Source: Jimgerdemannia flammicorona
Lineage: Eukaryota > Mucoromycota > Endogonomycetes > Endogonales > Endogonaceae
Length of the DNA stretch: 13,379 nucleotides
Assembly (NCBI GenBank): GCA_003990745.1
Contig: RBNI01004848.1
Location: 1 to 13,379, forward strand
Direction of reading: 5' to 3'
The notes beneath the pieces were generated by a model. That model worked only from the letters and a program-made list of their open reading frames with translations. It was not told the origin of the DNA and ran no database searches. Position 1 is the stretch's first letter. Each line of letters opens with the position of its first letter. The position numbers were made by a program, and so were the translations under genes. Below are positions 3,729 through 13,379 of the stretch, piece by piece.

Positions 3729-5936
3729 TTACTCGTCCTGATCCTCAACACCGACGGTTTGCGCGAGAAAATCCACAATCGCCGCCACCGTTTCAGAAGG
3801 CTGATCCTCGAGAAGGTAGCGGCCTGATAAGAGAGATGTGAGAGCAAGGTTAGTAAGCGTGGTATCATCAGAAATGCAAAAAGCAGAGAAGTTTTATCTG
3901 CAAACGGAAAAAAAAATCGAGTCATAGGGCCAAAATTTTACCAGCTCCCGCTACAGATCGAACCTCTCTCTCGGTACTCATCTGTATCTGCAGGACGCCA
4001 TCCCGATCATCCCTCCCCAGTATTAAAAAACACCTCCTGGGTCTTCTTCGCATTCTTGACTTCCCCTTTCTCAAACTCCTACTCCTCATATCGTCGGAAT
4101 CATCGTGATCCCCCGAATGCCCCTCGCCTCCCTCAGCATCTGCATCCGCCACCCATGACCGGGATCGCACGTCCGTCGCCTCGGCATCCTCCTCCGTTTC
4201 ACAGTGCCCCGCGCTTAGCCACGCCCTCAGAGCCTCTGATGCCCTCCTTGTCGCCCGCCTAGCCTCGTCGCCGTGCGCGACGATCGCGCCAAGGAAGGGG
4301 ACCCATCGCGGCCATGGTGCGGATTCCAGATCCTCGAGACCCGGGACGGGCGCGGTTCTGGCCCAGGCGAGCGGGCCAAAGATATAGTCTGGGGTGGGAA
4401 AGGGTATGTCATAGGCCTTGAGGGAGATTGAGGCGCGTTGGGCGACGAGCGAAGAGCGGAGGAGAGTGGAGACGTGGGGGAAGTGGGTGGCGGGGAAGGC
4501 GTGCAGGAAGGTGGAGTAGAGGAGGCGGCGAAGGAGGTGGGTTGTTGTGGGGGGTGTAGTTGTGGCCTGCGGTGTGATGGACCTAGTGGGATGGAGAAGG
4601 ATGATGTTGTGAATCCGAGGAGCGAATTCGGGGAGGACGAGTCTGATATGTGGATAAAAGTGAGGATTAGCGATATATTTGAGAGACTATAGTCCGAAAC
4701 ATTAGGTGTTTTCTTTTTTGTTTTTTGTTTTTTTCCTATTGATTAATAATAATAATATTAATATGAATATGTATGAAGATTACGTACTCGGCCACCACAC
4801 CCGCTTCGCCTTGCGCCAAGATTGTGGCATCTTCCACAGAAGGCATCACCTCGGAGAGGAACCATCGCAAGGTGGCGCAGTGAAGTTCCCATGCTGCGCC
4901 ATAGTCGTTCTCGCTCGACGGCTTGTCCGAGCGGCCCGATCCAGGGAAATCGAGGCACAGAACGCGATACTGGTTGGCCAAGAGGATCGGGATCAAATGG
5001 CGGTAGTAATAAGACCACTAAATTACGCAAACGGAAGGAGTCGAAATTTTTATTATTATCTCATTGCAGGATCGGGGAACCAGGAAACGCAAGAAAGGCA
5101 CCAACCGTGAGAGAATCATGCAAGCACAGCACCGTCCCTTTGGTGGAGCCGGGACTGGCAGAATCGTTCGCCGGGCCATCATGATGATGGCTCCTCCTCC
5201 TTGGTCGCTCATCCACGTAATGAACTCTGATTCCGTTCGGCATCTCGAAATAGCGCGGTTTATATCGCCACCCGGGACATGCTGACTCATCAAACCGTGC
5301 TGCGTTTGTCCGCAGGGCGGAGAAGAGGGGCACAATGGGCACGGAAAGTGAGGAGGAGGGGTGTGAGAAGGAGGATTCGGGGGAACCGATGCATGACGTA
5401 GCCGAAGAGGCGGAGGGCGAGTTCGGGTCGGTAGACGAGTGCCGGTGGTGGTGAGTGTGAGTGTGGTGAGTGTGGTGAGTGTGGTGAGTGTGGTGAGTGT
5501 GGTGAGTAAACTCGGAGAGCGGTACTCCGAAAGGCGAGAGCTCAGTTGGATCTACTTCGAAATCAAAGTCGGCGTCGAAGCAATAGTTTTCATGATATGC
5601 GGATGTGAGCATCGACTCATCTACAGAGTGGCCTTGGTATTTTGGCGGTGCCATCGTGTTATCGTCTTCGTAGAATCTTCCTAGCCAGGTCTCCAGTGTG
5701 AAGTAAGATACTATATAGGCTGATCCATAGTCGAGCACCTCCTTGGCGTTGTTGAGCTTCTCACGGTAGGTGAGAATGATATGGCGCACAGCCAATAAGG
5801 GTAATAGGCAAACGAAGAGTGTGTACAGCTGTATAACGGTGAGATCAAGGATGAAAAAGAAAAGGATGTGGATCTGCACGAGCAAGTAATGGAGTATCAG
5901 GCGTTTTGAGAGCCTCCTGTGGGAGGTGTTGACCAT
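3729..5936 (-). CDS. Membrane-anchored alpha/beta-hydrolase-fold protein (haloalkane dehalogenase-like), probably non-catalytic
   Basis: Exons on the minus strand are 5936-5106, 5017-4784, 4686-3942 and 3823-3729, all GT-AG with fitting phases, giving 634 residues. I chose the ATG at 5936 because its context (AAAATGG) is strong; an in-frame ATG at 6002 would add 22 residues. Order: one or two hydrophobic segments (about 10-55), acidic and His/Thr-rich low complexity (about 110-185), then the hydrolase fold. Fold signs are PRYFEMPNGIRVHYVDE, TVLCLHD, WSYYYRHLIPILL, RVLCLDFPGSGRSDKP, a cap-like AYDIPFPTPDYIFG, FLILGRDD and a C-terminal GRYLLEDQPSE helix. Family landmarks differ: the oxyanion HG is HD (273-274), the nucleophile elbow reads AQGEAG (345-350) where dehalogenases have VQDWGG, and the expected catalytic His of GHxLQED is Arg605. 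An Arg- and Asp-rich insertion precedes FLILGRDD. It could be a scaffold or sensor; no substrate can be inferred. Family members are usually near 300 residues, so the N-terminal half is an extension. Confidence 0.85.
5463..5507. repeat. Five tandem copies of a 9-bp unit inside the hydrolase-like gene
   Basis: The plus-strand unit GTGGTGAGT occurs five times in a row, with imperfect copies on the left side (about 5447-5462). On the coding (minus) strand it encodes repeated Thr-His-His, making a His-rich stretch in the low-complexity region before the hydrolase fold. The multiple-of-three unit keeps frame, so copy number can vary without breaking the gene. Confidence 0.9.
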
Positions 5937-6378
5937 TTTGGTTTGTTGGAAGAGAGGGAATGTGGGCAAGCGTTGTGTAATTTGGACAATTCCAAGCCAC
6001 ATGATCGGGTACCTGAAACTTCTGATCCGCAGTCACTCCGTTCAGGCACACCGTTGGCATGGCGAGGTGATAACCATCTAACTGCACTCAGTCTACATCC
6101 AACTTTCCTGCTCACATCCAACTTTCCTGCTCACCAGCCACTGATAATTTCGCAACCATGGACCGTGTCATCTCCGGGCCTTCATCCTAAAAAAGCACTG
6201 CTCGACAGTCACAAAATATCCTGACTAAAGTAAACGCTTGCTGATAGGCACTCGCTATTTCTGGCGTTAAAGTACCCCCTTTCGTCCAATTCTGCCAAAT
6301 GAGACAAGATTTTTTTTTTTTTTTTTTTTTTGATTGCCCCTTTTACAATCTCCTGTTTTGTGAGGGCGTACCAGTATA
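5937..6378. other. Non-coding interval upstream of the hydrolase-like gene
   Basis: This should contain the promoter and 5' UTR of the minus-strand hydrolase-like gene, but I cannot point to a convincing TATA or other core element. It also holds the 19-bp tandem duplication and a 22-base T run at 6310-6331. Short frames here show no family features. Confidence 0.5.
6095..6132. repeat. Perfect tandem duplication of a 19-bp unit
   Basis: Two identical head-to-tail copies occupy 6095-6113 and 6114-6132 (unit begins ACATCCAAC and ends CTGCTC). They lie upstream of the hydrolase-like start codon and about 250 bp outside the left inverted repeat. Either a simple slippage duplication or a duplicated regulatory site is possible. 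Confidence 0.95.
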
Positions 6379-6419
6379 ATATGGGGCGTGCTGTAACAAA
6401 ACCAGACAAAGTGAACATT
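6379..6419. repeat. Left arm of a perfect 41-bp inverted repeat
   Basis: This segment, which contains GGGGCGTGCTG, is the exact reverse complement of 12629-12669. Just outside, weaker similarity continues to a shared CCAG about 8-14 bp further out, with small insertions. It marks the change from fungus-like sequence into the AT-rich island and may be a transposon terminal inverted repeat. No clear target-site duplication was found beside it. Confidence 0.9.
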
Positions 6420-6559
6420 TGATGTCATTCAGGCTTAGGATTTTATTTTTGTCAGTCTTTTAATCATTCAATATGATAATTGCGGTAAGCCACAATTCTT
6501 TGCTTTCTCTTCTTTATTATTATCTCTTTCTGCTTTTTTTTTTAGTAAAAAAAATTATC

Positions 6560-8164
6560 ATGAAAAAAGAATGTTTTAATTGTAATAACAATAAAGAAGG
6601 ATTAACTATTAATTGATGAGATGAAGAAGAAAGAGAGGTTATTAAGTTTTGTTGTTGAGGATGTGCAGAAACACTTATGTAACAAGAATTAGGTAAAAAT
6701 AAAGAAAAGTTTGATTGGCCTTTTAAAGTAAAATACATTAATCAAAAAGATAGTAGCAGATGAAATAGAATAACTATCTGGTGTCCTCAATGCTGAATCA
6801 TGTTGGATTGAGATATCACCACTTATGAAGATAGTCAAGGACATAAATGTTCTTAATGTCATAATTACCACAAACAAATTAAATCCAGAGAACAAAACAA
6901 TCACTTTATCTGAAAACTAGATAACACTCCCAGTTATATTTGTCTCAAAAGTACTGAAGGGAGTGAAATAGTTTATCATATGTGTGACAAAATGGAAATA
7001 CTTAAAAAAGGAATGCTTAAGAGTCAAATCTCTGATTTAGGAAAAAGTATAACTACTGGTGCAGTTTTAAGACAAAACTCCAAAGGTCATATAGTATTAT
7101 GTACCAAAAGACATACTGAAAATTTTAAAGAAATAACTAGGCAAGAATGATCTGATATTCTTCCTATACTGAAAGATACAATTAATAAAATTGATAAAGT
7201 ATATAATCCAATAGACTACAGATTAAGTGTACCAGTAGGACCAATTGGTACCTAAAATTTACCCCATTTCTATATGTAAATAGTTTCTAAATATAAGAAA
7301 GAGAAAGGAAGCATATAAATCTCTGATAATATAGAGAGTAAAGCAGTTTCTCCAGAAGCAATTGAAGAAATAAATAAACTCTTCCAAGTAACCAATAACA
7401 ATAATATCATTATAGAAAAGAGTAAAATTGTTACTAGATCATATATTGAATTAGGAAATATAACTATTTCTACTAAAAATCACTTACCTAATGATATCAA
7501 TATGATGGACTAAGAAATCTGAGACCAAATTGAGAAATCTGTCAAGAACTCATCTAAAAAATGGAATCTGCAACATTAGCTAGTGGTTTTACTATCAAAT
7601 GTAAACTTAGAGAAGAAGCTACAAAAATTCTGAGAAAAGAAGAAGAACTTCCTCCAAGTTATAGTAAAACTTATCTCACCTCTGAATTTTTGATACTACT
7701 TTTTCCTAGATTTATTAAGAAAAAATGATGAAGGCAATTTAGACCAATTAAAGGAGGTCAATTTTGAGACATAATGGAAGATGAACAAGTGGCTGAAAAA
7801 ATAAGAGATCCCAAAACTTTATTATGTAATCTGAAAAGATGATAAAGATTATCTAAAGTATAAAGAAGAAGAAACTCATCTTCCTTCACTTATTTTAGAA
7901 AAAGAGCTGAAAAGAAGAAATAAGATTACAGAAGTATGAATTCAAATTAAAAATTTGAAAAAATAAACTAATTGAACTGCTAAACAAGAATAAGAATTAT
8001 AAACTAAAAGAGCTGAATTAATGAGATTAGAACTTAACTAAACTAATGAGCAAAAATCTAATGAATTTCCTTAAATTGGATTAGGAGTGGTTTTTATAAT
8101 TATTATTTCATTAACTACTTATTTACTTGTCATTGAGAAATTAAAGAAGAGAAATAAAAGTTAA
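6560..8164 (+). CDS. Unrecognised zinc-ribbon/HIT-like/coiled-coil membrane protein readable only with reassigned stop codons
   Basis: Read with UGA as Trp and UAA/UAG as Gln, one frame of 534 codons runs from ATG to a TAA at 8162-8164 with no frameshift. By hand count, Trp is about 14 TGA to 5 TGG; Gln is about 18 CAA, 13 TAA and 1 TAG. Two zinc-ribbon-like clusters are intact: C5-C8 with C32-C35, and C75-C78 with C97-C100. A HIT-like stretch follows (about 150-250), including VLCTKRHTENFKEIT, YRLSVPVGPIG and LPHFYM ending in a TAA-coded Gln. It resembles the HxHxQ motif with Tyr238 as the middle residue. The C-terminal third is a charged coiled coil, then a hydrophobic segment at about 511-526 and a basic tail. 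A T-rich tract ending in TTTAG lies just upstream (about 6531-6544) and could be a 3' splice site. The gene converges on the transposase-like gene with 22 bp between their first terminal TAAs. Function unknown; a nucleotide-binding or hydrolysing role is only suggested by the HIT-like part. Under the standard code it would be a pseudogene. Confidence 0.5.
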
Positions 8165-8186
8165 TTATATATTATCTAATTACTTT

Positions 8187-10384
8187 TTATACTGGCTTTA
8201 GACAAGTAATATCTTTAAATTCATCTCAGACAAAGGAGCAAATATTGTGATAAAGGTACTTCTGGTGTTTCAATTCTATAGAAAGAGGTTTAAGCACTGG
8301 AAATAACAAAGCTTTGATTTTTTCTATGGCTTTTGAAGCCTCAAATCTACTTGTCTTTAATAACTTAAATTCTTGGAAAGGACCATTAGTGACTTCTTGG
8401 GCTTTGATCACTCTAGGATTAGTATTGATGAAAAGAAAATGTTGAAACTTTTGCAGGCCAGGTAATTTTTTAAAATAAGTTTCTAGGCTGCTTATGATGT
8501 CATAATAATGAAAACTTTTACTATCATTATAACATTGAGCTTTATTTAGTCCAGCAGTGCTAGACCTTTTTATCACATCTGTAATGTGATCTACACAGTC
8601 TACCATAGTCTTGCAATAAAGCCTTTTGATTAGTCTGAAGCTACTATCACATTTGAATTTAGTATGACCCAGAATTATGAAGTTTAATTCAATAATTTCA
8701 TAATAACTGGTAATTACCAGATACAGATAAAACTAAAGAGTGATATTATTTTTGTTTTGTCTACCTGCATTATCACAAGTAATTTTTAAGTACTTTTCAC
8801 CTTTATTCAATTGCTTAATTCCATCAAAGACTAGGCTAAGGGTACCATTTGGACCTTTTCTAAAAAGTTTGTTCTTATCTAGCATATAATTGATTTGCTC
8901 ATAGATTACTTCATCTTAGATATTAAACAAGTGTACCTTGTAAGTACTAAGATAATAGACTTTACCGATCTGTTGATCTGAATGAGGTACATGGATATTT
9001 TACACTCAATTATAGCTGTAATGGGCCACCACATCAATGCTGTAATATGATACCTTGTCTTTAGCCAGCAAATAATTTTGTTTGATGAGCTTTCTATATT
9101 CTTTAGCTAATTTGGTATTTTTGTTATAATAGTTTCACTCTAACTTGACTTTAGATAGATACTCTTTATATTTCTTTAATAGGTCTTAGGCCTCTTCTTC
9201 TTTACAGACTTTAAATTGCAAGTCATTCCACAATTGTTGACAGGTATTACACAAGTCAGTTTGAGGACTCATGATTTAAATATATGGGGTAAGCTGGTGT
9301 CATAATTTGTGAAATATATTATACTTAAGGACATATAATTTACTATCTTCTTCTAAACTAGTTAAAAGTCATAGTGAACAGATTTATAACTCATTTCTGC
9401 TGGTAAAAAGATAATTGATTAGGTAACACAATTAACATTTCTGACTGAGCTAGGTAAGTCATGAACTTCAGCATAATTTAGCAGGAAATTCCTAACCATA
9501 GTAGCCATATCAATATTGATGATCATTTTGGTTTTTTACTGTGACATTCTTTTTATATTACCATGGATTCATAGTAGAAGACTATTCTTTAGCAGATGAT
9601 TTCAGATATTTTCAAAATAATTACAACCAATGCCAAGCATATTAAGGTAGGTTTTTTGACAAATAAGAGTATTATGATTCCAGCAATAGATTGTTCTCTT
9701 GTTGATTCAAGCCTTGTTCTTGAGACATTGACTAGTACTTGTCACTCCCCCATCCATGGATCTGAGTTGAGCCATTAAGAAAATATCTTGTTTGGGTTTT
9801 GTTAGCACTTGGAAGTCTTCTCACAATTTAGCAAATTCTTTTCTAAGCATCTTGGCTGAGTAACTGCAACCATACTCCACTTCCAGGAAATAGAGAACTT
9901 TCTCATATTCATTCATAATTGTGTCATCTACTATATATATATATTATATATATATATTATGCACAGTTTGTTTAGTTTTGTAAAATTTCTTCCACAAAGT
10001 GTATTAAAGAATACATATAGGAATACCCCTATATATGATATCTATAATATTCTACTCTTCAGAGAGTTTTCTTTTTTTCCTAGGCTCTTAGGATATTTCT
10101 GGTAATTCTTGCTTTTTAGAATTCAATTCTTATTGGCTTCATCCAGAAATATCTTCTTGGTAAATGGTATTTATACTTTTATTAGAATTATTAGAATTGA
10201 CATATAGTTGTTGATAAATTTCATAGGTAATTCTCTCTTTATCTAAGTATTCTTGAATAACTTTGGTGTTAGATAATTTGAAAACATACAGTGCAATTTT
10301 TTCACCCTGCTCTTTTTTCAAAATGCTTCTGATGGTACTATAGTTTTTCGATTCCATAGTGGATCTGATGTATATTAATTTCAT
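8187..10384 (-). pseudogene. Transposase-like protein (eukaryotic family with DN-x-GQNKNN-type motif) with reassigned stops and one frameshift
   Basis: Minus-strand frame from ATG 10384 to TAA 8189-8187, about 730 residues, read with UGA=Trp and UAA/UAG=Gln. Early features include PRKKRKLSEE, a nuclear-localisation-like cluster. Family landmarks in order: IHGNIKR (about 9550-9570), NYAEVHDLP, FLPAEMSY, LTPYI, TDLCNTC (about 9241-9261), HYSYNW followed by a TAA-coded Gln (9002-9000), DNAGRQNKNN (about 8744-8775), a TAG at 8735-8733, GHTKF (about 8656-8670), DCVDHI, and a C-terminal PGLQKFQHF block. These match, from memory, a transposase-derived family common in arbuscular mycorrhizal fungi and animals (DUF7869-like). 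The recoded Gln after HYSYNW and the TAG both sit where I recall Gln in relatives. The frame slips by one base at the T4 run 9364-9367: motifs upstream are in one frame and downstream motifs in another. Most relatives read NCAGQ or NAGGQ where this has NAGRQ. A TA microsatellite at about 9932-9959 lies within the frame. Decayed copy, sequencing slip, or foreign-code gene are all possible. Confidence 0.6.
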
Positions 10385-10630
10385 ATTTTTTTATAGGGAT
10401 AGTTTTATGTATCAAAGTTGTGTGACTTACATGTCAAGCGTATGAAGTTCTGTTCAATTGCGCACAATCCTTATTATCAATAGATTTTGAATAGCACCCA
10501 AGTAAATTCTACAATGCAGCATTAATTTGAATGTAACACATAAACCTGGCACTTCTTATACTACACTCACTCATGTGATAATGTAAATTCGTCTCTTAAG
10601 ATTTAAGTTGCCGATTTCTGGTAAGATTAT

Positions 10631-12337
10631 TCACTCATATTTTCCCTTTTTTGCGACACGTCCACTCACCCTCAACTCAGATTCCATGACGCGTCCTGAT
10701 TCTGCGTCCTTCTCTATGGCCTCCTCTTCTGCGTCCTCCCCTATGACCACCTCTAATTCAGGTTCAGGTCCCACAGCTGTAATCGCTGACAAAAGAATTC
10801 GAATGATGTGACAAAGGATCGATTTTGAGTTTTCAATTGCGCCAGTAAAGTCTCCGCAGCTGTAATCCTTGGAAATCTCGATAATTGGCTCCTTAAGTGA
10901 GCCAGTCCAGCGAAGGAAAATCCAATTTTTAGCAGTAGTGACAATTCCATACATTGCAAAGGGGGCGCCAGCATGATCGATCTTGCGTTTTTTGTTCAAT
11001 CTCTGAAAAGATATACAGGATATAGATCAATTATCCGCAGATTAATAATAAAAGTTAAATGCGTCCCAAGTTTCATACCTCAAGCGCACTATGCATCTGA
11101 ACAATATTTTGGGCTGCTCCCTGATCGAAATCCTGGCGCTTAGCTTCATTGAGCATGACCACAAGCTGCAGATATTTGACAAGGTAGTCCACGGGGCCAT
11201 AGCCACGACTGCCACTGAGAAATTCTTCTACAAACAGCTGCAAATTTTCAGGAAATTTCAAATGATGGTTCTGAATCAAAAGAATAGTGGTTGTCATGAA
11301 GACAGAGATGAATTCGCGGGCTGTTGTTTCGTTTAGGATTTTCCCGGCAAAGACTTGATTTTTATCTCGGAGTTGTTGAACAAAATATTCGAACTCTTCA
11401 TCTGTAGGCGTAAACGATGATGCTGGGAGAGTCTCTAAAGATGCACACAAGTGAAGGTTACTAGTCATGATGACGAAAACGGAGACACCAAGCATAGCTA
11501 AAACCTTGTATGTTACCTATATTAAATTTGGGTGCGTTTCCGATACTGTTCCACTCCTCCTTCACGAAAAGCCTGGAGACCTCTTTAATTGTGTAATCCC
11601 CGTAAGCCTTCCTCCCTGTCAAAAAAAAAGGGGTAAGTAAGTATTCATGCTGCCACAGCTGCATCCAACTTTTAGTCTTAAACCAACCTTCAATCTTGAT
11701 ATCTAAGCTAATTTCGCGTTTTTTCGCCTTCGTAGGCGTATCTTCCACTATTGCGTTCAACTGAAACTCATCCTTAATGTTGTCTCCGTCCCTTCCGTCC
11801 AAATGCTGGACAAAGTAAAATTCTGGGTCACCTTCTCTTAACGCCTGAAATGTTTGGTAAACCTCTTGCCGAAGTTTATAATACAATCCAGTGGAATGCG
11901 GGAGCGTAACCGAACCCTTGGAGGTCGAGAGATTGTATTGAATATGCACTAAAAGGCAACAGCCCCACGAGTAAATGGAAGGTGAATTGAACAGAGCTTG
12001 GGAAACTTTTACATTCCAATTTACCTCTAACATTGGAGAGCGGGTAACGGACGATGAGAGGGGCCAGAGCGGAGGTTTTCAGATGTTTGAGTTGAATGTC
12101 GCTGCGAAGAGGTCTGTCATTTTCATCTTCAGTTTCACCACTTTCATCACTTTCATCTTCATATTCGGTTTCGTCGTAATCACCATAAAATTCGAGGTCT
12201 TCCGGGTCAATATTTTTGAGTTTCTTTTCACAGATTTCTGTCGCAAGGTCATCCAAATTTTGATTCACATCAGCCACAGTGTGTTGGTAGGGACGCTTCT
12301 TATTCTCAAGCTGGATCCACAATACTTTATGGGCCAT
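10631..12337 (-). CDS. Crinkler (CRN)-family protein with PD-(D/E)XK nuclease-like domain
   Basis: Five exons on the minus strand: 12337-12025, 11948-11688, 11615-11517, 11434-11079 and 11002-10631. Introns are 72-82 nt, GT-AG, and total coding length is 1401 nt (466 residues). The fourth exon start uses the acceptor at 11436-11435; an acceptor at 11462-11461 breaks the frame. The N-terminus (MAHKVLWIQLENKK, then an LDDLATEICEKKL helix) fits the ubiquitin-like CRN header. An acidic Glu/Asp stretch and APLIVRYPLSN follow. The central LPHSTGL and linker regions are typical of fungal CRN proteins. The C-terminal half has a restriction-endonuclease-like core: GPVDY with Asp307, then NEAKR with Glu321 and Lys323, and a Gln-rich helix (QGAAQN) after it. 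These metal-binding and catalytic positions look intact. The tail is acidic. CRN proteins act as host-directed or inter-organism effectors, often in the nucleus; the target here is unknown. No signal peptide is evident. Confidence 0.85.
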
Positions 12338-12628
12338 GTTTCTACATGAATGGGGGTGAATTAGCAAAATAATTCGCAAAGTCTTTGTTTTGAAGGGAAA
12401 AAAAAGCGACGTCTTTTTTGATCAAAGCCACTTCTGACGTCACAAACAGAACACGGGGAGTTCCTCCTCCCATGGCCTATGTCATGATGAATGGAAAGAG
12501 ATCCCGCTCCCGACGACTGGCTAAGTTCACATCTCATAATGGAAGCAAATGTCTTGGAGCAGGAGACGATTTAGAGACTCTACTGTTGCATTGCATTGAA
12601 GACAAGTAATAATGGCGCACTGCTTTTC
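12338..12628. other. Upstream region of the CRN gene
   Basis: This interval between the CRN start codon and the right inverted repeat presumably carries the CRN promoter. I see no strong core-promoter motif. A plus-strand frame (12418-12609) starts with plausible residues but has no family features and no splice partner. Confidence 0.5.
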
Positions 12629-12669
12629 AATGTTCACTTTGTCTGGTTTTGTTACAGCACGCCCCATAT
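12629..12669. repeat. Right arm of a perfect 41-bp inverted repeat
   Basis: Exact reverse complement of 6379-6419. It lies about 290 bp upstream of the CRN start codon. The flanking sequence is TA-rich on both sides, which would obscure a short target-site duplication. Confidence 0.9.
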
Positions 12670-13379
12670 AATATATACCTGGATCACTATATATGACAGT
12701 ATGGAACTTGCACAGCCGAGACGTAATCAATTCCTGCTTTCCCCACTACACCAGCGCGTCCTCGCTTTAACCGCCTCTTCGACAGGAGGTAAATGGAGTT
12801 AACGATAATGATCGTGTTATCGAGGAAGGAACCGGCTAAATGAATTGCTTGGGACGGATTTCGCCAGCTCCAACAGACGGTACCACACATGCGCCTCGTA
12901 TCGTGGCTATGCCGATGAATCGGTTAAAGGGAATTAATCCCTGATTCATTTGCGTGATCGCATGAGAGAAAAAGAATTTTTTTTTTTTTTTTTTTTTCAT
13001 TGAACTCCTCATACCCCTGCATTTGTGCTGAAGAATAAGTAAATACGAAATACAAGAGGCAAGCTCCACACGGAAACATTTTCATGATCTAACGCCATGT
13101 CGGCAAGTGATTACCATGATTGACAATATGTCCAGTGCTGGAGTTTGTATTAGCTAGAGGCCAAACCTTTTGTTGAGCCGGGAAAACAAGCCCAATAATC
13201 TAATTTCTTCATATATTGTTTTATAATGGAATTTAGTTATTAATTTCGACAAAAATCAACAAAACAATGGCTATTTATAATATCGGGCGCAAGTGCTGTA
13301 TGTGGCTTCGCGCGTGACATCAAGACCAAAATCGACCCTTGCCATCCACAAAAGCCAGCCCAGTCTTTTTTTTTTTGGG
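12670..13379. other. No gene recognised
   Basis: Open frames here are short and lack motifs, good start contexts or splice partners. A 21-base T run occupies 12977-12997 and another T run closes the window. An ATG in good context near 13267 opens only a frame of about 16 codons. I see no RNA gene. Confidence 0.5.

Follow-up and report, generated by a model that had tools for sequence, protein, structure and literature searches.

Introduction

To our knowledge, no chromosomal transposon family has been described that uses a genetic code other than that of its genome, and our search of open-licence PubMed Central papers for such a family returned none. Comparable cases occur in other compartments: Mollicutes-related endobacteria read UGA as Trp, and endogenous mitoviruses and mitochondrial DNA are written in their compartment's own code. 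Here, we describe a locus of the fungus Jimgerdemannia flammicorona, for which the window analysed is the whole of contig C4848 (13.4 kb), from an assembly of 134.8 Mb in 7754 contigs. It holds an AT-rich island with a HIT-family gene and a DUF7869 transposase-like gene, which a first-pass annotation had read in a code with UGA as Trp and both UAA and UAG as Gln. We find that the island carries genes of a larger element bounded by inverted repeats, and that this element is a decayed copy within a repeated family of DNA transposons. Judging from codon columns across the family, the native code is very probably of the NCBI table 4 type, with UGA as Trp and UAA and UAG as real stops, overlaid by later decay.

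In UGA as Trp, in UAA and UAG as stops and in their AT-richness, Mollicutes and endobacterial genes are like those of the element. Unlike them, the element sits in fungal DNA, the named matches of its transposase family are fungal, and our searches met no copy in an endobacterium. Nuclear copies of mitoviruses (PMC4393810) and of mitochondrial DNA resemble the element as sequences of another compartment that decay in the nucleus; unlike it, they are not many-copy inverted-repeat transposons under selection. Mollicutes-related endobacteria live in Mucoromycota (PMC11423566; PMC10507103) and contaminate some Glomeromycotina assemblies (PMC10507103), and neither 'transpos' nor 'UGA' occurs in the available part of PMC10507103.

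UGA as a Trp codon across the family

Using a relative of the HIT-family protein (P0019) as query, we found HIT-family matches at 91 places in the genome, and thus many dispersed copies. We read 21 copies, made up of the window copy and the 20 highest-scoring of the remaining places, plus three further small places. Codon columns were taken from tblastn under code 4, a scoring that favours Trp at TGA, with L018 (HIT gene) and L026 (transposase) as seeds. Loci L017 and L022 gave no transposase row, one transposase codon table used 17 of 19 rows (coverage >75%), and L022 and others enter the codon tables as several aligned pieces.

At 17 columns of the HIT gene, TGA is present in at least 60% of copies (hereafter, fixed columns), and the 340 cells of these columns comprise 291 TGA, 29 TAA, 7 TGG, 4 TAG, and 9 other codons, all nine lying two or more steps from TGA. 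Among the nine one-step neighbours of TGA, only TAA and TGG occur there, with no Arg, Gly, Ser, Leu, or Cys codon. Columns 20, 21, 91, and 107 are TGA in every aligned copy (19/19, 19/19, 21/21, and 21/21, respectively). In the transposase, three columns are fixed (39 TGA, 8 TAA, and 4 TGG of 51 cells) and two more are mixed between TGG and TGA; column 206 has TGG in 10 copies, TGA in 4, TAG in 4, and TAA in 1. Moreover, column 127 (11 TGA, 5 TAA, no TGG) is occupied by Trp in P0011 and P0016, two Ambispora proteins with ordinary annotation. This Trp and the TGG codons at fixed columns independently point to Trp as the encoded residue.

The Arg columns have a different make-up, being mostly AGA or AGG with scattered CGA, TGA, and CAA, and TGA accounts for 13 cells at such columns in the HIT gene and 6 in the transposase. 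Hence TGA does occur where the residue is not Trp, which the first-pass annotation had taken as grounds for giving up its reading, but the columns where this happens are mixed and do not overlap with the fixed ones. Because the fixed columns vary only to TAA and TGG among the neighbours of TGA, while the Arg columns are mixed, UGA as Trp looks ancestral in the family, and the sporadic UGA at Arg columns looks like decay. Some copies keep CpG (observed/expected ratio 0.2-0.3) and yet hold the fixed TGA columns. The assignment of UGA to Trp is thus borne out by 17 HIT and 3 transposase columns over 21 copies, and not by the window alone.

Recoded genes on other contigs, which the first-pass annotation had suggested looking for, are indeed there: 84 of the 91 HIT-family places carry in-frame TGA (counted from the match table). 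Conversely, no intact standard-code copy, which would have spoken for simple decay, is present among the 21 copies read. At C5448:9352-10518, a shorter HIT-type frame of 388 codons is open under code 4, with 8 TGA and 2 TGG, and ends at TAG; only a short transposase remnant lies beside it, and the DNA around is of host type.

Two other ideas were set aside. One was an early guess that most TGA codons of the HIT gene stand for Arg. The other was descent of all copies from one already dead copy, which we rejected given that the 20 fixed TGA columns never show AGA, CGA, GGA, TCA, TTA, TGC, or TGT and that the ratio of nonsynonymous to synonymous differences (pN/pS) is low.

UAA and UAG as terminators

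The Gln assignment of UAA and UAG did not hold. TAA or TAG is in the majority at no column of either gene, and these codons are spread over many residue types. They occupy Gln-consensus cells (44 TAA in the HIT gene; 40 TAA and 17 TAG, together 57, in the transposase), Trp-column cells (30 TAA and 6 TAG; 10 TAA and 6 TAG, respectively), and also Lys, Arg, Ile, Glu, Ser, and Leu columns. Both codons serve as terminators within the element itself: UAA is the stop of the HIT gene in the 6 copies read (in the window, TAA 8162-8164) and of the transposase in 3, and UAG ends a small open reading frame (ORF) in 6 of the 7 copies translated, the seventh being L016, where the ORF is inverted. In fact, several copies have no or only one TAA or TAG in the aligned frame (L010, L018, and L026 for the HIT gene; L011, L026, L010, L023, and L028 for the transposase). 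The comparison first drawn with karyorelict ciliates and Condylostoma (tables 27 and 28) can therefore be discarded, the pattern being that of table 4.

Selection on the two proteins

The first, second, and third codon positions diverge by.173,.116, and.284 for the transposase and by.291,.224, and.342 for the HIT gene, and the median pN/pS in the coding frame is 0.29 and 0.53, respectively. The other two forward frames give medians of 0.81 and 1.06 (transposase) and 0.80 and 1.01 (HIT), and the three reverse frames 0.71, 0.38, and 1.20 (transposase) and 0.84, 0.65, and 1.08 (HIT). From these patterns of codon divergence, both proteins are judged to be under selection. Two features temper this judgement. 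Not all of the wrong-frame controls are near 1, as reverse frame 1 gives only 0.65 (HIT) and 0.38 (transposase), which we take as an echo of shared third positions. Also, in frame +1 of the HIT gene, pN is below pS in 209 of 210 pairs as well, and so the bare count of such pairs is weak evidence.

Base composition and decay of the window copy

The island (about 6540-10390) has a G+C content of 0.27-0.30 against 0.42-0.53 in the flanking genes, with 0.32-0.36 in the adjoining few hundred bases, in agreement with its first description as AT-rich. CpG is absent from the 1605 bases of the window's HIT gene and occurs twice in the next 2226 bases, for observed/expected ratios of 0.00 and 0.04, compared with 0.87-0.94 in the surrounding genes.

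As had been noted from the start, the two long convergent frames are interrupted many times under the standard code. They are, however, not open even with all stops read as sense, since the HIT gene shifts frame near 7530 (seen in the alignment to P0019) and near 7705 (seen by eye), and the transposase-like gene does so once (Table 1). In the joined plus-strand frames of the window, we counted 12 TGA, 4 TGG, 13 TAA, and no TAG; Trp is thus mostly TGA, as claimed, where the first count had been about 14 of 19. The accompanying argument, that decay of TGG should yield TAG about as often as TGA, is right for this plus-strand gene.

Against P0019, the window's HIT gene has TGA at all 4 of 4 such positions opposite Trp, and TAA opposite Gln (3), Arg (1), and Gly (1). 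The transposase was compared with its best relative, P0007, where 15 stops are aligned: 6 TGA at Arg; 5 TAA at Gln; and 2 TGA, 1 TAA, and 1 TAG at Trp. Here, as the first-pass annotation had it, the column of the UAA at 9002-9000 is Gln and that of the UGA preceding HQLTPYI (9302) is Trp, and no CGN codon is left at 33 Arg columns. Taken alone, the window's transposase looks like decay. The scattered UAA and UAG, the further UGA, and the loss of CpG fit C-to-T/G-to-A change. With stops from such changes and three frame shifts, the window copy cannot now make its proteins.

Where the proteins would be made, and alternative explanations

The explanation that we consider best is a transposon family in fungal chromosomes whose genes would natively use UGA as Trp and UAA and UAG as stops. 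After insertion, the window copy would have lost nearly all CpG and gained UAA, UAG, extra UGA, and the three frame shifts. With less certainty, we infer that working proteins are made, now or once, in a UGA-as-Trp compartment inside the fungus, from which the chromosomal copies would be invaders. The element's proteins are, or formerly were, probably made by a translation system other than the host's.

A compartment outside the host cytosol is proposed because the host genes look standard and the tRNA-Trp looks ordinary. A WD40 search of this genome, with 150 of 188 candidates scored, gave 99 places, of which 96 have no stop, 2 have TAG, and 1 has TGA. The one complete tRNA-Trp found, on C1799, has the anticodon CCA and, by eye, a 5-bp anticodon stem, though a thermodynamic fold did not return its cloverleaf; the only other match to it is a 5' half on C630, also with CCA. 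Since Mollicutes-related endobacteria live in Mucoromycota and read UGA as Trp, they are our favoured home for the proteins' synthesis, if a tentative one at somewhat less than even chance; mitochondria are a poor candidate, with only a slight chance. A cross-compartment transposon, encoded for the UGA-as-Trp ribosomes of an endosymbiont or organelle, spreading in host chromosomes, carrying host-type genes, and common to several symbiotic fungal lineages, is a wider proposal that we regard as doubtful.

Several observations weigh against the reading of a resident compartment and, in part, against the code itself. The Trp residues in P0019 and P0007 are not independent evidence should table 4 have been used to translate their source. 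A tRNA search of the window and the 20 loci found none, and a genome search with the host tRNA-Trp as query found no tRNA-Trp with a UCA anticodon, so that the suppressor tRNAs raised in the first-pass annotation have not come to light in these places. No bacterial small-subunit (SSU) rRNA exceeded the cut-off in the assembly (5 of 1471 candidates scored), and DnaA was not found there (13 of 14 controls positive). No relative was met in 84,980 prokaryote genomes searched with exact 8-residue patterns only (for P0007, 53 pattern matches, none related), in other limited tests for prokaryote relatives, or in scans of IMG/VR viral contigs. Moreover, the element has eukaryote-like features, namely the basic stretch PRKKRK and a host-type gene inside the inverted repeats, and no Shine-Dalgarno sequence was seen by eye before three starts. 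Separately, L029 and L030 resemble bacterial SSU rRNA weakly, at scores under the cut-off (49.5 and 40.6 bits), and could be organellar or host rRNA. A Mollicutes marker gave 3 weak matches in 398 genomes of one class, in genomes of 2.4-2.5 Mb, and a tRNA pattern aimed at Mollicutes genomes matched in other bacteria.

An alternative is that the fungal cytosol itself translates the element, through suppression of UGA or with a tRNA present only at certain stages, and that the chromosomes are the true home. Inverted-repeat insertions in host DNA, the host-type gene within the repeats, the basic stretch resembling a nuclear localization signal, the missing Shine-Dalgarno sequence, the youth of some copies (CpG observed/expected 0.2-0.6), and the restriction of named DUF7869 relatives to Glomeromycotina are all in its favour. 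Nevertheless, we hold it to be unlikely, as about 17 UGA per HIT gene would demand efficient decoding, while 98 of the 99 WD40 places are without TGA and the host tRNA-Trp has CCA on a 5-bp anticodon stem. Clearly less likely again is repeated horizontal transfer from another eukaryote with nuclear UGA as Trp, e.g. a soil ciliate (colpodean ciliates read UGA as Trp), followed by decay in the fungus. While this would account for the eukaryote-like features along with the code, the database matches include no such relative, and copies as diverse as these (HIT translations 51-83% identical to L018) would need many transfers.

Very improbable, in our estimate, is an ordinary transposon in the standard code that owes all of its in-frame stops to C-to-T/G-to-A decay (CGA to TGA, CAA to TAA, TGG to TAG or TGA). 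It fits the window's transposase taken singly, in which 6 of 8 TGA are at Arg columns and the Trp columns are split among TGA, TAA, TAG, and TGG, as well as the loss of CpG and the mixed transposase column 206. Yet it cannot give HIT columns 20, 21, 91, and 107 as all TGA, without CGA, CAA, or TGG and in CpG-keeping copies too, nor can it explain why pN/pS is low if the genes of the family could not be read. Hardly credible at all is the code first proposed, with UGA as Trp and UAA and UAG as Gln all native, for even with Gln as the commonest consensus residue at TAA and TAG cells, these codons hold no majority column, fall on Trp and other columns, serve as terminators, and are all but missing (0-1) from some copies.

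If the table 4 type reading is true, then either Trp is inserted at many UGA codons of selected messages in a eukaryotic cytosol, or the foreign-code proteins of a resident move host nuclear DNA; either option would open a new route for symbiont-host gene traffic. With UGA as Trp, standard annotation loses such genes, and the HIT protein has a single relative in a search of 5.8 billion proteins, made with a HIT query that read most TGA as Arg.

The two proteins

The HIT-like region claimed for the plus-strand gene was recovered as a Pfam match to HIT (PF01230, E 5.3e-5). The structure model has a mean pLDDT (predicted local distance difference test) of only 43.8, and its top Foldseek hits are GalT-like double-HIT proteins (1hxp at E 2.7e-4; six chains with E 2.7e-4 to 9e-4). 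Thus, the Pfam match and, from a low-confidence model, the double-HIT fold are shared with HIT/GalT-like proteins, from which the element's protein differs by its triad, its extra Cys-rich part, its coiled coil, and its membrane segment. The triad is H-F-Y-x-[R/Q/W] in all nine aligned rows, P0019 included, with none of the HxHxH type, and therefore the usual catalysis or hydrolysis is doubtful. Our guess is that the HIT protein may be a nucleotide-binding, membrane-anchored accessory of transposition.

The transposase-family motifs seen on the minus strand proved to be those of a DUF7869 protein (PF25273, E 4.2e-17), whose best relative, P0007 (73% identity), is an unnamed metagenome protein. 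DUF7869 is the sole domain call, and the AlphaFold model (mean pLDDT 36.4) is too poor for a DDE-type judgement. We infer that this protein moves the element, with the HIT-family membrane protein as an accessory. Named relatives come from Glomeromycotina only (Ambispora, Diversispora, and Geosiphon); these proteins, such as those of Ambispora leptoticha, belong to the same family, with at most 63% identity to the named Ambispora proteins. The SYDWAQ stretch is missing from all five Ambispora models aligned, and the YCW stretch from the three that extend across it, which would be expected if gene prediction had passed over in-frame TGA at these places. Unlike the element here, the Glomeromycotina records are annotated in the standard code, and their TGA codons are putative.

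The element and its copies

The element spans 6375-12673 and is bounded by inverted repeats with 44 of 45 bases identical between the ends (Table 1). The first-pass interval of 6560-10384 was accordingly right about the two-gene island, though it fell short of the full extent.

Table 1. Features of the element in the window
Feature	Position	Strand	Remarks
Left terminal inverted repeat	6375-6419	+	TATAATATGGGGCGTGCTGTAACAAAACCAGACAAAGTGAACATT; 44/45 identical to the inverted copy 12673-12629
HIT-family gene	6560-8164	+	N-terminal part rich in Cys, HIT domain, probably another HIT-like domain, coiled coil, membrane segment; Trp written with UGA
DUF7869 (PF25273) transposase-like gene	8175-9916	-	Stops and one frame shift near 9365
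Small ORF	10052-10384	-	MKLIYIRSTMESKNYS...; PRKKRK basic stretch near C-terminus; TAG end common to other copies
Host-type gene between the inverted repeats	10628-12337	-	CpG observed/expected about 0.88; several overlapping frames
Right terminal inverted repeat	12629-12673	-	Variant GCTGTAAC, as in the left repeat; GCTGCAAC in most other loci printed

The same end repeat is found in 17 of 20 other loci (E <= 1e-3), on the HIT side of the element wherever checked. Outside the window, only L013 has a second inverted copy able to close the element, and this weakly (29 bases). ATAT flanks GGGGCG at both ends in the window; these bases could be a target-site duplication (TA or ATAT) or part of the repeat. 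The transposase is aligned beside the HIT gene in 19 of 21 loci and is preceded by the small ORF, which in the window has one TGA and two TAA in frame.

Because the inverted repeats bracket 6375-12673, the host-type gene is inside the element. Its overlapping frames suggest introns; a Pfam search with it gave no match, and tblastx pairs short pieces of it with the end of L015. The left neighbour of the element is a Pumilio-type RNA-binding gene with PUF and RRM domains.

Further observations were made at individual loci. In the window at about 9955-10000, CAAAACCAGACAAACTGTGCAT lies ahead of the transposase start, as in the aligned copies, and resembles the inverted-repeat core CAAAACCAGACAAAGTGAACAT; it is possibly a candidate binding site. 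In L016, the small ORF (4285-4608) is on the strand opposite to the transposase, unlike in L026, and a Crinkler-type gene (4666-8000; PF20147 N-terminal domain, E 2.2e-19) follows the transposase, with no closing repeat seen there; its next frame has an AAA-like match under the cut-off. An Uma2-type endonuclease gene (PF05685, E 5.7e-18) is located at 74-1099 of L018, left of the element and near a partial inverted-repeat match (1031-1064). L010 (4-978) and L015 (1002-2231) contain second, partial transposase copies near the first, pointing to nested or neighbouring elements. Lastly, the HIT-gene and transposase trees (L009-L028) disagree; for example, L016 groups with L014 in one tree but with L023/L026 in the second, a pattern that exchange of the two genes among elements would give.

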